Part shown: positions 3,208 through 33,838 of the stretch, in pieces
Numbering within the stretch: the first letter of the stretch is position 1
Layout: each line of letters opens with the position of its first letter
Assembly (NCBI GenBank): GCA_022865345.1
Contig: JALHSU010000092.1
Span: 1-33,892 of the forward strand
Direction of reading: 5' to 3'
DNA from: Candidatus Zixiibacteriota bacterium
GTDB lineage: Bacteria > Zixibacteria > MSB-5A5 > RBG-16-43-9
Length of the DNA stretch: 33,892 nucleotides
Made by a program: the position numbers and the translations under genes
The notes under the pieces: model-generated
Databases searched by the model: none
What the model saw: the letters and a program-made list of their open reading frames with translations, nothing else
Told to the model about the DNA's origin: nothing

Positions 3208-3300
3208 GCGAGGCCGTCAGGGTTTTGAGACTTTCAGCCTCGCTTAAGCGACCCTTTCCTATGCATCCGTTATTATGAAAAGGGTCGCCCTATGATTTTT
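3208..3300. repeat. GCGACCC-type dispersed double-hairpin repeat, copy 2
   Basis: It shows the same order of elements as copy 1: GCGAGGC, then TTGAGACTTTCAGCCTCGC, then GCGACCC ... GGGTCGC, then GATTTTT. It lies in the presumed leader of the downstream plus-strand gene. Confidence 0.75.
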
Positions 3301-3450
3301 ACTCTCCCTTGCTCCCGAAGGGATCAGGAGCAAGCCTCCGCAGAGTAGGAAAGGAGTAAAGTGCGATGTCTTCTGGAGTCCAAGAGCTTGCTCTTGTGAC
3401 ATAGGCTTAAAATAGTCAAAAGATCTTTTCAACAAAGAAAGGAGGACAAA

Positions 3451-4413
3451 ATGGAAGAGTACTATATCGCCTGGTGGAACCTTGAAAATTTGTTTGATGT
3501 AGAAAATTCCACTGAAAGGCCAGATTGGTTGCAAAAAAACCTTAAGAAGGAACTGAGTGGCTGGAATCAAGGGATATTGAATAAGAAAATTGAACAGCTT
3601 TCCAGCATTATCAAGCAGATGAACAAGCCTAAGGGTCCTGACCTTTTAGGGGTTTGCGAGGTGGAGAACAAGCCGGTGATGCAGCAATTAATGGATAGCT
3701 TACAACCTCTCGGGCGGAATTACGGTATCGCTCATCATGATACCCTGGATGAAAGAGGTATTGATGTGGGGTACATCTATGACCAGGACAAGTTTGAGGC
3801 CGGTGATCAGTTCTCCCATATAATCTTAAAAAGGACCGCCACACGTGACCTATTTCAAGTCAATTTTAAGACTAAATCCGGCACGGACCTGATCATCGTG
3901 GGAAACCACTGGCCTTCCAGAACCAGTGGGGAATGGGAGACTGAGCCCTATCGAATCCTGGCAGGCGAGACTCTGAGCTACTGGCACAAAAGAATACTTG
4001 AGGAGAAGGGTGATGATGTAGCAATTCTGATCATGGGTGACTTTAATGACGAACCACCCAGCAGATCTATCACCCAGTATGCCCTAAGTACCAGCTGTAA
4101 AATGAAGGTTAAGAAGAGCACGAAAGCGCCCAGGCTCTTCAACCTGATGTGGACCGAGATGGGAAAAGGTGTGGGCACGCTTTACTATGATAATTTTCCC
4201 CTCCTGTTTGACCAGTTTCTGGTTTCAAAAGGAATGGTAAAGGTAGGCTCACCCATCCAGATCAAATCGGATTCGGTCAAAATTGAACGATTTCCCGAAA
4301 TGATAAGCGGTACTTATGAAGTCCCCAAGCGATTTGGGAGACCGTCCAGCAAATTAGATACAAAAGGGTTCAGCGATCATTTCCCCATCTCGCTGGTGTT
4401 GGAGGAGATTTAA
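3451..4413 (+). CDS. Endonuclease/exonuclease/phosphatase (EEP) family protein
   Basis: The 320-residue protein carries the metal-dependent phosphohydrolase motifs of the EEP (DNase I-like) fold in order. These are WWNLENLFD (8-16, metal-side Asn10), GVCEVEN (67-73, metal-binding Glu70), GNHWPSR (151-157, catalytic His153), GDFNDEP (196-202) and FSDHFPI (307-313, Asp309-His310). The fold is shared by nucleases, inositol phosphatases and sphingomyelinases, so the substrate cannot be read from sequence. No signal peptide or membrane segment is evident, suggesting a cytoplasmic enzyme. The ATG has a near-perfect AAAGGAGG upstream. It is the only plus-strand gene in the window and stands alone, convergent with the cupredoxin gene. 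Confidence 0.88.
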   Translation: MEEYYIAWWNLENLFDVENSTERPDWLQKNLKKELSGWNQGILNKKIEQLSSIIKQMNKPKGPDLLGVCEVENKPVMQQLMDSLQPLGRNYGIAHHDTLDERGIDVGYIYDQDKFEAGDQFSHIILKRTATRDLFQVNFKTKSGTDLIIVGNHWPSRTSGEWETEPYRILAGETLSYWHKRILEEKGDDVAILIMGDFNDEPPSRSITQYALSTSCKMKVKKSTKAPRLFNLMWTEMGKGVGTLYYDNFPLLFDQFLVSKGMVKVGSPIQIKSDSVKIERFPEMISGTYEVPKRFGRPSSKLDTKGFSDHFPISLVLEEI

Positions 4414-4492: not shown

Positions 4493-4521
4493 CTTTCCCT
4501 CTCCTTGAAGGAGAGGGAAAG
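4493..4521. terminator. Strong hairpin between convergent genes, possible bidirectional terminator
   Basis: Arms CTTTCCCTCTCCTT and AAGGAGAGGGAAAG pair perfectly over 14 bp around one central base. It lies between the ends of the convergent EEP and cupredoxin genes. It lacks a clear T-run, so its role is inferred from position. It resembles the inner hairpins of the 84-bp repeats. Confidence 0.4.
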
Positions 4522-4644
4522 GGTGAGGTTATTTAATAGGCAGGTCAGACATTCCTGTGGTTACGAGCCAGCCCGTCCTTTGGACGCCAGGCTTAGCTCT
4601 CTGACCAATATTGAACAGGCAGGATGCCTGTTCTACCAACAATT

Positions 4645-8054: not shown

Positions 8055-8114
8055 GCGACCCTGTCCTACGGTGCCTACGGCAGACGTAGTCTCCGTTAAT
8101 AGGAAAAGGGTCGC
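8055..8114. repeat. GCGACCC-type repeat, second hairpin with loop insertion
   Basis: GCGACCC (8055-8061) pairs with GGGTCGC (8108-8114). Compared with copy 1, about 20 extra bases sit in the loop, and these contain CTACG ... CGTAG, able to form a small hairpin of their own. Confidence 0.65.
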
Positions 8115-8156
8115 GCTGAGATCTCAAATTTCTACCTCACCTAAGCAAACAGGGAT

Positions 8157-16873: not shown

Positions 16874-16959
16874 GAACTCACCCTGAATCCCTCTCTTAGA
16901 AAGAGAGGGACGTCGTTTCTCCCTTTTCTTTTTAAGAGAAGGGGCCAAGGGATGAGTTC
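16874..16959 (-). repeat. 84-bp three-stem repeat, copy (reverse orientation)
   Basis: The outer arms are GAACTCA-CCCTG and the facing GATGAGTTC. Inside lie TCCCTCTCTT ... AAGAGAGGGA and a decayed CCCTTTTCTT ... AAGAGAAGGGG stem. It is 86 bp long and opposite in orientation to the two copies flanking the DUF559 gene at the right edge. Confidence 0.85.
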
Positions 16960-21991: not shown

Positions 21992-22097
21992 GAACTCACC
22001 CTGAATCCCCCGCCGTTGGCAGGGCAGACCTCTCTTAGGAAGAGAGTAACTAAAGCTCCCCTTCTCTTGTTAAGAGAAGAGGCAAAGGGATAAGTAC
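21992..22097 (-). repeat. 84-bp three-stem repeat, diverged copy with nested insertion
   Basis: It starts GAACTCACCCTGAATCCC and ends with a decayed GGGATAAGTAC. Two inner stems (CTCTCTTAGGAAGAGAG and CTTCTCTTGTTAAGAGAAG) are intact. An insertion with the CCCGCC-GTT-GGCAGGG core lies at 22009-22024. Confidence 0.8.
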
Positions 22098-22109: not shown

Positions 22110-22216
22110 GAACTCACCCTGAATCCCTCTCTTAAAAAGAGAGAGACTAAAAGCCCCTTCTCTTCTTAAGTCGAAGATCCCGCCACGGGCGGGAAGAAGG
22201 GGCAGGGGATGAGTTC
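22110..22216 (-). repeat. 84-bp three-stem repeat, copy with hairpin inserted in a loop
   Basis: Outer arms GAACTCACCCTG and GGGGATGAGTTC are intact, and the first inner stem is TCTCTT/AAGAGA. The CCCCTTCTCTT ... AAGAAGGGG stem has about 23 extra bases in its loop, containing CCCGCC-ACG-GGCGGG (22179-22193). Confidence 0.85.
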
Positions 22217-33285: not shown

Positions 33286-33369
33286 GAACTCATCCCCTGG
33301 CCCCTTCTCTTACGAAGAGAAGGGGGCTTTAGTTCCTCTCTTTATAAGAGAGGGATTCAGGGTGAGTTC
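33286..33369 (+). repeat. 84-bp three-stem repeat, copy A (flanks DUF559 gene)
   Basis: The outer arms are GAACTCATCCC and CAGGGTGAGTTC. Inner stems are CCCCTTCTCTT/AAGAGAAGGGG (loop ACG) and CCTCTCTT/AAGAGAGG (loop TAT). It supplies the last 13 codons and stop of the DUF559 gene and the first codons of an upstream-extended kinase frame. Confidence 0.92.
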
Positions 33370-33742
33370 CTTCATAAAAAACGGTTTTTAACCTGACTAA
33401 AACTCTTTCAAGGTTATTGACTATCTGCCCGTTTCGAAAACGGATTACATTGATACCCATATTATTTATGATATACGACCTAAGTTCATCGTACTCTTTC
33501 TGGAGGTCATGATTCTTGCCATCAATTTCCACTACCAGCCGTTTTTCATAACAATAAAAATCAGCAATAAAGAACCTCTTTTGATTCATGTACTCAAAGA
33601 AAATTGGATATTGACGAAGAAATTTCTTTCCCAGTATCTTCCTGTTCCGTACTGCGTCCCAAAATATTTGCTCACTTCGGGCTGATCTCTTTCGAAGATC
33701 ACGACAAACACTTTTGGCTGCCCGGACAACCGTTTTGTTCAT
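33329..33742 (-). CDS. DUF559 protein (VSR/PD-(D/E)xK nuclease-like)
   Basis: The 137-residue protein matches the DUF559 family, predicted endonucleases of the very-short-patch-repair/restriction-nuclease fold. Features are Glu24 in RSARSEQIFWDAVRN, KKFLRQYPI (39-47), FIADFYCYEKRLVVEIDGKNHD (58-79; Asp61, Glu72, Asp74) and INVIRFRNGQIVNN (97-110). Residues 125-137 (GTHPESLSYKERN) and the stop codon are encoded by the flanking 84-bp repeat, and its ATG lies 12 nt from the second repeat copy. No Shine-Dalgarno is clear. The whole unit 33286-33838 looks like a gene bracketed by its own repeats. Confidence 0.9.
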   Translation of the reverse strand: MNKTVVRAAKSVCRDLRKRSARSEQIFWDAVRNRKILGKKFLRQYPIFFEYMNQKRFFIADFYCYEKRLVVEIDGKNHDLQKEYDELRSYIINNMGINVIRFRNGQIVNNLERVLVRLKTVFYEGTHPESLSYKERN

Positions 33743-33754
33743 GTTTATGTTCTC

Positions 33755-33838
33755 GAACTCATCCCCTCACCCCTTCTCTTACAAAGAGAAGGGGATTTTA
33801 GTCCCTCTCTTTCTAAGAGAGGGATTCAGGGTGAGTTC
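33755..33838 (+). repeat. 84-bp three-stem repeat, copy B (flanks DUF559 gene)
   Basis: Same length and orientation as copy A, with 77 of 84 positions identical by direct comparison. Stems are CCCCTTCTCTT/AAGAGAAGGGG and CCCTCTCTT/AAGAGAGGG. It lies 12 nt upstream of the DUF559 start codon. Confidence 0.92.

Follow-up and report, generated by a model that had tools for sequence, protein, structure and literature searches.

The stretch of DNA analysed here, referred to as the window, covers positions 1 to 33,892 of contig JALHSU010000092.1 of a Candidatus Zixiibacteriota bacterium, from a genome (G000) of 2.86 Mb in 275 contigs. Towards its right end, a gene encoding a DUF559 protein lies between two copies, A and B, of an 84-bp repeat, each built from two triplex motifs (TMs). 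The unit is composed as follows.

33286–33838, no strand assigned: whole unit of repeat A, DUF559 gene and repeat B, compared with the sister species G003 at the orthologous site.
33286–33369, plus strand: repeat A, 84 bp, with TMs at 33288–33324 (minus) and 33333–33367 (plus); overlaps the last codons and the stop of the DUF559 gene.
33329–33742, minus strand: DUF559 gene (PF04480, YcjD-like, Vsr/EDxHD-type fold), 137 amino acids.
33755–33838, plus strand: repeat B, 84 bp, with TMs at 33757–33793 (minus) and 33801–33835 (plus); 12 nt upstream of the DUF559 ATG.

The two repeats were compared by inspection. They are direct repeats of 84 nt each in the same orientation, 92% identical with 7 differences, and both fold far better than shuffled DNA (hairpin energies, z −5.8 to −6.9). 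The only open reading frame (ORF) between them is 33329–33742 on the minus strand; its product matched Pfam DUF559 (PF04480) with E=2.9e-26 and 91.9 bits against a gathering cut-off of 20.6, and its C-terminal tail is encoded by repeat A. No recognisable transposase was found between A and B. An earlier reading, made from the letters of the window alone, had described two repeats of equal length and orientation that differ at 7 of 84 positions and enclose only a DUF559 gene, with A supplying the last codons and the stop and B starting 12 nt from the ATG. The comparison of both copies, the ORF list, the Pfam search and the coordinates bear this out, and the positions and counts of that sequence-only reading were essentially right. 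It had proposed a search of the whole genome for the repeat and for DUF559 genes; this gave 26 blastn matches to repeat A and exactly one DUF559 gene, the one in the window. The unit is therefore a single-copy gene flanked by genome-dispersed repeats, as in a REPtron. An origin of the arrangement by chance or by an assembly artefact was rejected, because the sister species shows the same arrangement in an independent assembly (L004) and matched controls were seldom positive.

A TM runs from a C-rich arm through a loop to a G-rich arm, which is followed after a short gap by a third stretch that mirrors the G-rich arm, and both A and B contain two TMs as inverted halves. The 'three-stem elements' of the sequence-only reading are better described as two inverted halves, each a hairpin with a mirror third strand. 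On this layout we assign A and B to the BoxC/PIT class of 'intrastrand-triplex' repeats; the strict sequence pattern of the E. coli motif, TM_ECO, is not matched, the layout being the same and the sequence different. In E. coli, knowledge of BoxC/PIT/triplex repeats goes back to the 1990s. The motif was studied there by Holder et al. (2015; >260 genomes; PMC4666352), triplex formation was demonstrated in vitro for TM_ECO, and the loci were found to be unusually variable. The same study reports that its authors found no mobility gene near the E. coli motifs, and their mobility and origin are unexplained (PMC4666352). In the sister species G003 (L144 and L161), some of the repeat hairpins are longer, with a short GC-rich inner stem (CCGCC..GGCGG) inserted in one arm.

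The pairing of DUF559 with repeats was tested at 80 named loci from a scan of species genomes, which were picked by the protein and not by the flanks. They come from phyla that include Proteobacteria, Nitrospirae, Chloroflexi, Bacteroidetes, Cyanobacteria, Planctomycetes, Elusimicrobia, Doudnabacteria, Peribacteria and Bipolaricaulota. The 330 nt upstream of the gene were matched to the 360 nt downstream, in direct or inverted orientation, and 75 loci, from about 15 phyla, had enough flank for this test. Repeats on both sides were detected at 58 of the 75, compared with 17 of 566 matched positions and 9 of 220 other small ORFs at the same loci, which answers the proposal of the sequence-only reading to compare DUF559 with genes of similar length. 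The sequence of the repeats varies from lineage to lineage. Within the phylum of the window, PF04480 was matched in 28 of 98 genomes, all of one class, and 16 of the 24 testable DUF559 loci in this class have flanking repeats.

When an explicit TM definition was applied to the 80 loci, 60 had at least one TM near DUF559. The density was 3.13 per kb within 260 nt of the gene and 0.044 per kb beyond 1.5 kb, a 72-fold enrichment. The third strand of the innermost TM faces the gene in 40 of 50 cases upstream and in 40 of 47 downstream; it points inwards on both sides at 29 of 37 loci, where 25% is expected (binomial p ~1e-11). The innermost TMs of the window unit have the same polarity. With third-strand arms that point at the gene from either side, the element has polar ends like terminal repeats, and in this respect they correspond to the terminal inverted repeats of DDE-type insertion sequences. 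We found no report of a DUF559-TM pairing in the searchable literature, with subscription journals not covered. The DUF559 gene of Neisseria gonorrhoeae (L126) lies among direct repeats of 114–122 nt that are about 88% identical (2809–2929, 3430–3543 and 3703–3824); it probably encodes the gonococcal DUF559 protein NGO0050 of structure 3hrl. At the Mesorhizobium locus L110 the flanks may resemble RIME, a two-palindrome element of rhizobia.

The sequence-only reading had compared the unit to a RAYT/REP system. A pairing of gene and repeat is indeed borne out by the flank counts, but the genome additionally has five RAYT-type genes (Y1_Tnp) with different repeats. All ten RAYT loci examined in the genus and family of the window are flanked by repeats, mostly GTAG-tagged, and none of the ten has a TM nearby. 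The GTAG/CGTC tag is absent from A and B, whereas GTAG-type repeats do accompany RAYTs of this genus. Because the RAYTs carry other repeats and no TM, they do not account for the 84-bp repeats, and a RAYT as their mover was rejected. Two gene-repeat pairings, RAYT/REP and DUF559/TM, coexist in one genome. Another hairpin family, GCGACCC..GGGTCGC, occurs in the window at 1066–1118, 3248–3300 and 8074–8126; it is partially matched next to some RAYT genes in the genus and family, and may be a RAYT-linked REP.

The DUF559 protein itself is not a Y1 HUH tyrosine transposase. Its conserved residues are the D of DF.C and E-x-D-G. The AlphaFold model of the window protein is confident (pLDDT 84) and matched folds of the PD-(D/E)xK/Vsr type. 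The nearest structures are 3hrl and 3r3p, the latter being the homing endonuclease I-Bth0305I (profile E=6e-5; Foldseek probability 1.00, TMt 0.66, E=4.6e-3), which places the fold of the protein with that of the Vsr/EDxHD homing endonucleases. Vsr stands lower among the structure matches with a weak E-value; YcjD had been grouped with Vsr in an earlier profile study (PMC1189080). That DUF559 cuts or mobilises hairpins would be consistent with the homing-endonuclease-like fold of the model. Between the DUF559 genes of G000 and G003, dN/dS is 0.14, a value indicative of purifying selection.

Occupancy of the site was compared with the sister species. In G003 the orthologous place beside a kinase gene carries one solo repeat (L144), whose left flank continues the left flank of the window unit and whose right flank continues its right flank. 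The occupancy of this site thus differs between related species, as the sequence-only reading had asked of relatives, and since G003 has a solo repeat where G000 has the full unit, the species differ there by the gene plus one repeat. The proposed moving unit of the gene with both repeats therefore has to be refined, because the difference comprises one repeat and solo repeats move too. G003 has a DUF559 unit of its own (L004), which is 89% identical over about 580 bp, also bracketed, and not orthologous to the window unit, being located 32 kb away; at the place corresponding to it, the G000 contig ends. At the site of the window unit, gain by homing into a solo repeat and loss by recombination between direct repeats are both possible.

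Differences were also found within genes. In hrpA of three betaproteobacterial genomes, DUF559 is in frame in L059 and L086 at a site where L084 has a doubled TM only; at a second hrpA site, DUF559 is present in L084 and the site is empty in L059 and L086. Altogether, 18 of the 80 loci have the unit in frame within a long host ORF, which could be named by Pfam in nearly all cases and has host domains on both sides in most. The hosts are hrpA, priA, valS, recG, metH, prmA, MmeI-type and N6 methylases and hsdR, and in L105 the unit is fused in frame to the front of ispF. The in-frame repeats are translated as '..PSPSGRGAGGEG' and 'TPTPLPEGEG', and solo repeats are also read through in some of these host genes.

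In E. coli the DUF559 protein is YcjD. The neighbours of its gene are sapF and fabI, the BoxC on its downstream side is listed as TM number 9 in PMC4666352 (~1351.2 kb), and by inspection the C-terminus of YcjD ends in BoxC-like sequence. Because a clear TM is found on the downstream side only, the locus looks like a worn example of the element, and ycjD would be the partner of BoxC in E. coli. Upstream of ycjD (L128, 2048–2089) there is a different long palindrome, CACCTCATTCTGACAA..TTGTCAGAATGAGGTG, which is not a TM. Two empty-site comparisons were rejected. The ycjD site is shared with the eef operon (PMC12817139), so the sapF-fabI interval of strains lacking ycjD is not a clean empty site but is occupied by eefRABCD; at the ygfF-gcvP BoxC pair none of the other alleles is a simple empty site. 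Many strains lack the doubled BoxC of the hrpB-mrcB interval as one block of some 100 bp, and in E. coli O111 (L158) an internal deletion has reduced it to a single hairpin.

Elsewhere in the window, the following copies and motifs were found.

4496–4528, plus strand: TM of a second, E. coli-BoxC-like family.
16874–16959, minus strand: full-length solo copy of the 84-bp element; this site also holds a repeat in G003 and falls in an assembly gap (run of N) in G002.
22029–22095, minus strand: partial solo copy of the 84-bp element.
22110–22170, minus strand: partial solo copy of the 84-bp element, with one complete TM half at 22112–22146.

Of the further copies that had been noted at 16874, 21992 and 22110, the first is full length, but the other two are partial. 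Many of the 84-bp copies stand directly upstream of genes of a paralogous protein-kinase family (window 33286; G000 contigs C194, C213, C97, C188 and C263). The second TM family (CCCTCTCCTTTTTAAGGAGAGGGTTAGGGTGAGG type) has 37 near-TM_ECO matches in the genome and is close to the BoxC of E. coli.

Several known systems share features with the unit. It resembles RAYT/REP systems (REPtron, REPIN) in having one small gene with dispersed palindromic repeats adjoining it, a hairpin with a conserved single-stranded head and doubled inverted repeats; it differs in that a PD-(D/E)xK Vsr-like nuclease takes the place of the Y1 HUH enzyme and TM repeats that of the GTAG/CGTC-tagged REPs, and in that genuine RAYT/REP pairs are present alongside it in the same genomes. 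With BoxC/PIT/TM_ECO it has in common the order of C-rich arm, loop, G-rich arm, short loop and mirror G-rich strand and the doubled inverted pairs, but the E. coli copies are always intergenic, whereas many DUF559-bearing units are in frame within genes. The likeness to the Vsr/EDxHD homing endonucleases lies in fold and profile and in a freestanding selfish nuclease gene within host genes; unlike these, DUF559 has no intron or intein visible around it and is bracketed by multi-copy repeats at many sites, not at one homing site. Miniature inverted-repeat transposable elements (MITEs) and Rickettsia palindromic elements (RPE) are likewise short and palindromic, and some are in frame in genes. 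The DUF559 unit differs from them by bracketing a specific nuclease gene and by the lack of a TA-type target duplication at the site tested. We read the element as REPtron-like or homing-like and not as a REPtron itself, which would have a Y1 enzyme and a tagged REP.

Our favoured explanation, to which we assign a probability of about 0.66, is that the DUF559 gene and its flanking repeats form one selfish element, in which DUF559 is the dedicated nuclease partner of BoxC/PIT/TM repeats as RAYT is of the GTAG-tagged REPs. The full element would be [hairpin-head]-DUF559-[head-hairpin], each side often carrying a complete double TM, and solo TMs would be non-autonomous or left-behind ends. DUF559 may recognise the TM (hairpin plus mirror strand) and cut in or beside it. 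Existing TMs, and occasionally new sites, would then receive a copy of the element, or of the gene with one repeat, through homing-like repair, and insertions that keep the frame could persist in essential genes. In the reverse step, direct-repeat recombination would leave a solo repeat. This explanation is supported by the flank counts, the density and polarity of the TMs, the separate repeats of the RAYTs, the differing states at single sites, the in-frame insertions, the purifying selection and the fold. Genome counts point the same way: the TM_ECO-like pattern was found in 16 of 23 relatives with DUF559 and in 12 of 75 without (Fisher p=2.7e-6; 98 genomes, uncorrected for phylogeny), and in evenly sampled E. 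coli the median number of BoxC-type places was 21 with ycjD and 7 without, a contrast that tracks the phylogroups and is not independent evidence. Cleavage, target choice and direction of movement are what we infer here. A wider version, in which DUF559/YcjD would constitute a separate, bacteria-wide selfish class, its Vsr-like nuclease recognising intrastrand-triplex DNA and spreading both the gene that encodes it and the BoxC/PIT/TM repeats, also by inserting in frame into essential protein genes, is advanced tentatively and at somewhat less than even odds.

Several observations weigh against the selfish element. No flanking repeat was detected by the flank test at 17 of the 75 loci. Direct-repeat recombination with loss of DUF559 is another possible reading of the difference between G000 and G003. 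No target-site duplication is visible at hrpB-mrcB, the one resolvable site in E. coli. Both the genome-level and the E. coli counts are confounded by phylogeny. Strains without ycjD have up to 25 BoxC-type places, TMs are abundant in three genomes without DUF559, namely G011 (complete genome, 20 copies), G093 (67) and G075 (50), and no DUF559 of its own was found in the G000 genome for the second TM family. Hence the repeats either persist after the gene is gone or can be moved by another source. Abundant repeats in relatives lacking DUF559 had been named in advance by the sequence-only reading as speaking against its idea, and in part they do.

Some of these points also favour a passive explanation. 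TMs might be hot spots of recombination or instability that duplicate and excise what lies between them, with DUF559 as cargo without a role in the spread. The variability of BoxC/TM loci in E. coli (PMC4666352), the persistence of TMs without DUF559 in several genomes and the possible deletion of the gene between the direct repeats A and B, with a solo repeat left over like that of G003, all fit this account. Yet other small genes at the same loci are bracketed in just 9 of 220 cases, DUF559 is bracketed in about 15 phyla by repeats that differ by lineage, and random cargo does not predict the inward polarity at 29 of 37 loci; we regard passive hitch-hiking as unlikely. If instead DUF559 served the host as a structure-specific Vsr-like caretaker, trimming or resolving hairpins or triplexes at TMs and linked to them by selection without spreading them, its fold, the purifying selection (dN/dS 0.14) and the triplex and hairpin structure of the repeats would be expected. 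An enzyme acting in trans, however, would have no need of a substrate copy on either side of its gene, need not insert in frame in hrpA, priA, valS, recG and metH, and need not be patchy (28 of 98 relatives; ~3365 of 5426 E. coli genomes with ycjD), and the caretaker role appears distinctly improbable.

A role in defence, as a restriction nuclease in a variable island with incidental repeats, is suggested by a PADLOC match to a type II methyl-directed restriction enzyme and by several units inside methylase or hsdR genes. The match is weak (E=3e-5), for which reason DUF559 was rejected as a defence gene; YcjD has no PADLOC match, many hosts are housekeeping genes (hrpA, priA, valS, metH, ispF, prmA), and the repeats are specific to DUF559. 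This makes a defence function very unlikely. Mobilisation of the 84-bp repeats by the RAYTs elsewhere in the genome, with DUF559 carried along, could call on the five Y1_Tnp genes of G000, but it is hardly credible given that all ten RAYT loci have their own, mostly GTAG-type repeats and no TM nearby.

The pairing of DUF559 with TM repeats makes DUF559 the first credible candidate for a gene that spreads BoxC-type repeats and, in ycjD of E. coli K-12, the pairing gives the first testable candidate for the spread of BoxC/PIT/TM in a laboratory organism. If the wider version is true, it would account for how BoxC-type repeats arose in hundreds of genomes. Next to RAYT/REP, the pairing would be a second and unrelated way of combining a gene with palindromic repeats; it also suggests what a large domain of unknown function does and where some in-frame insertions in essential proteins of bacteria come from.
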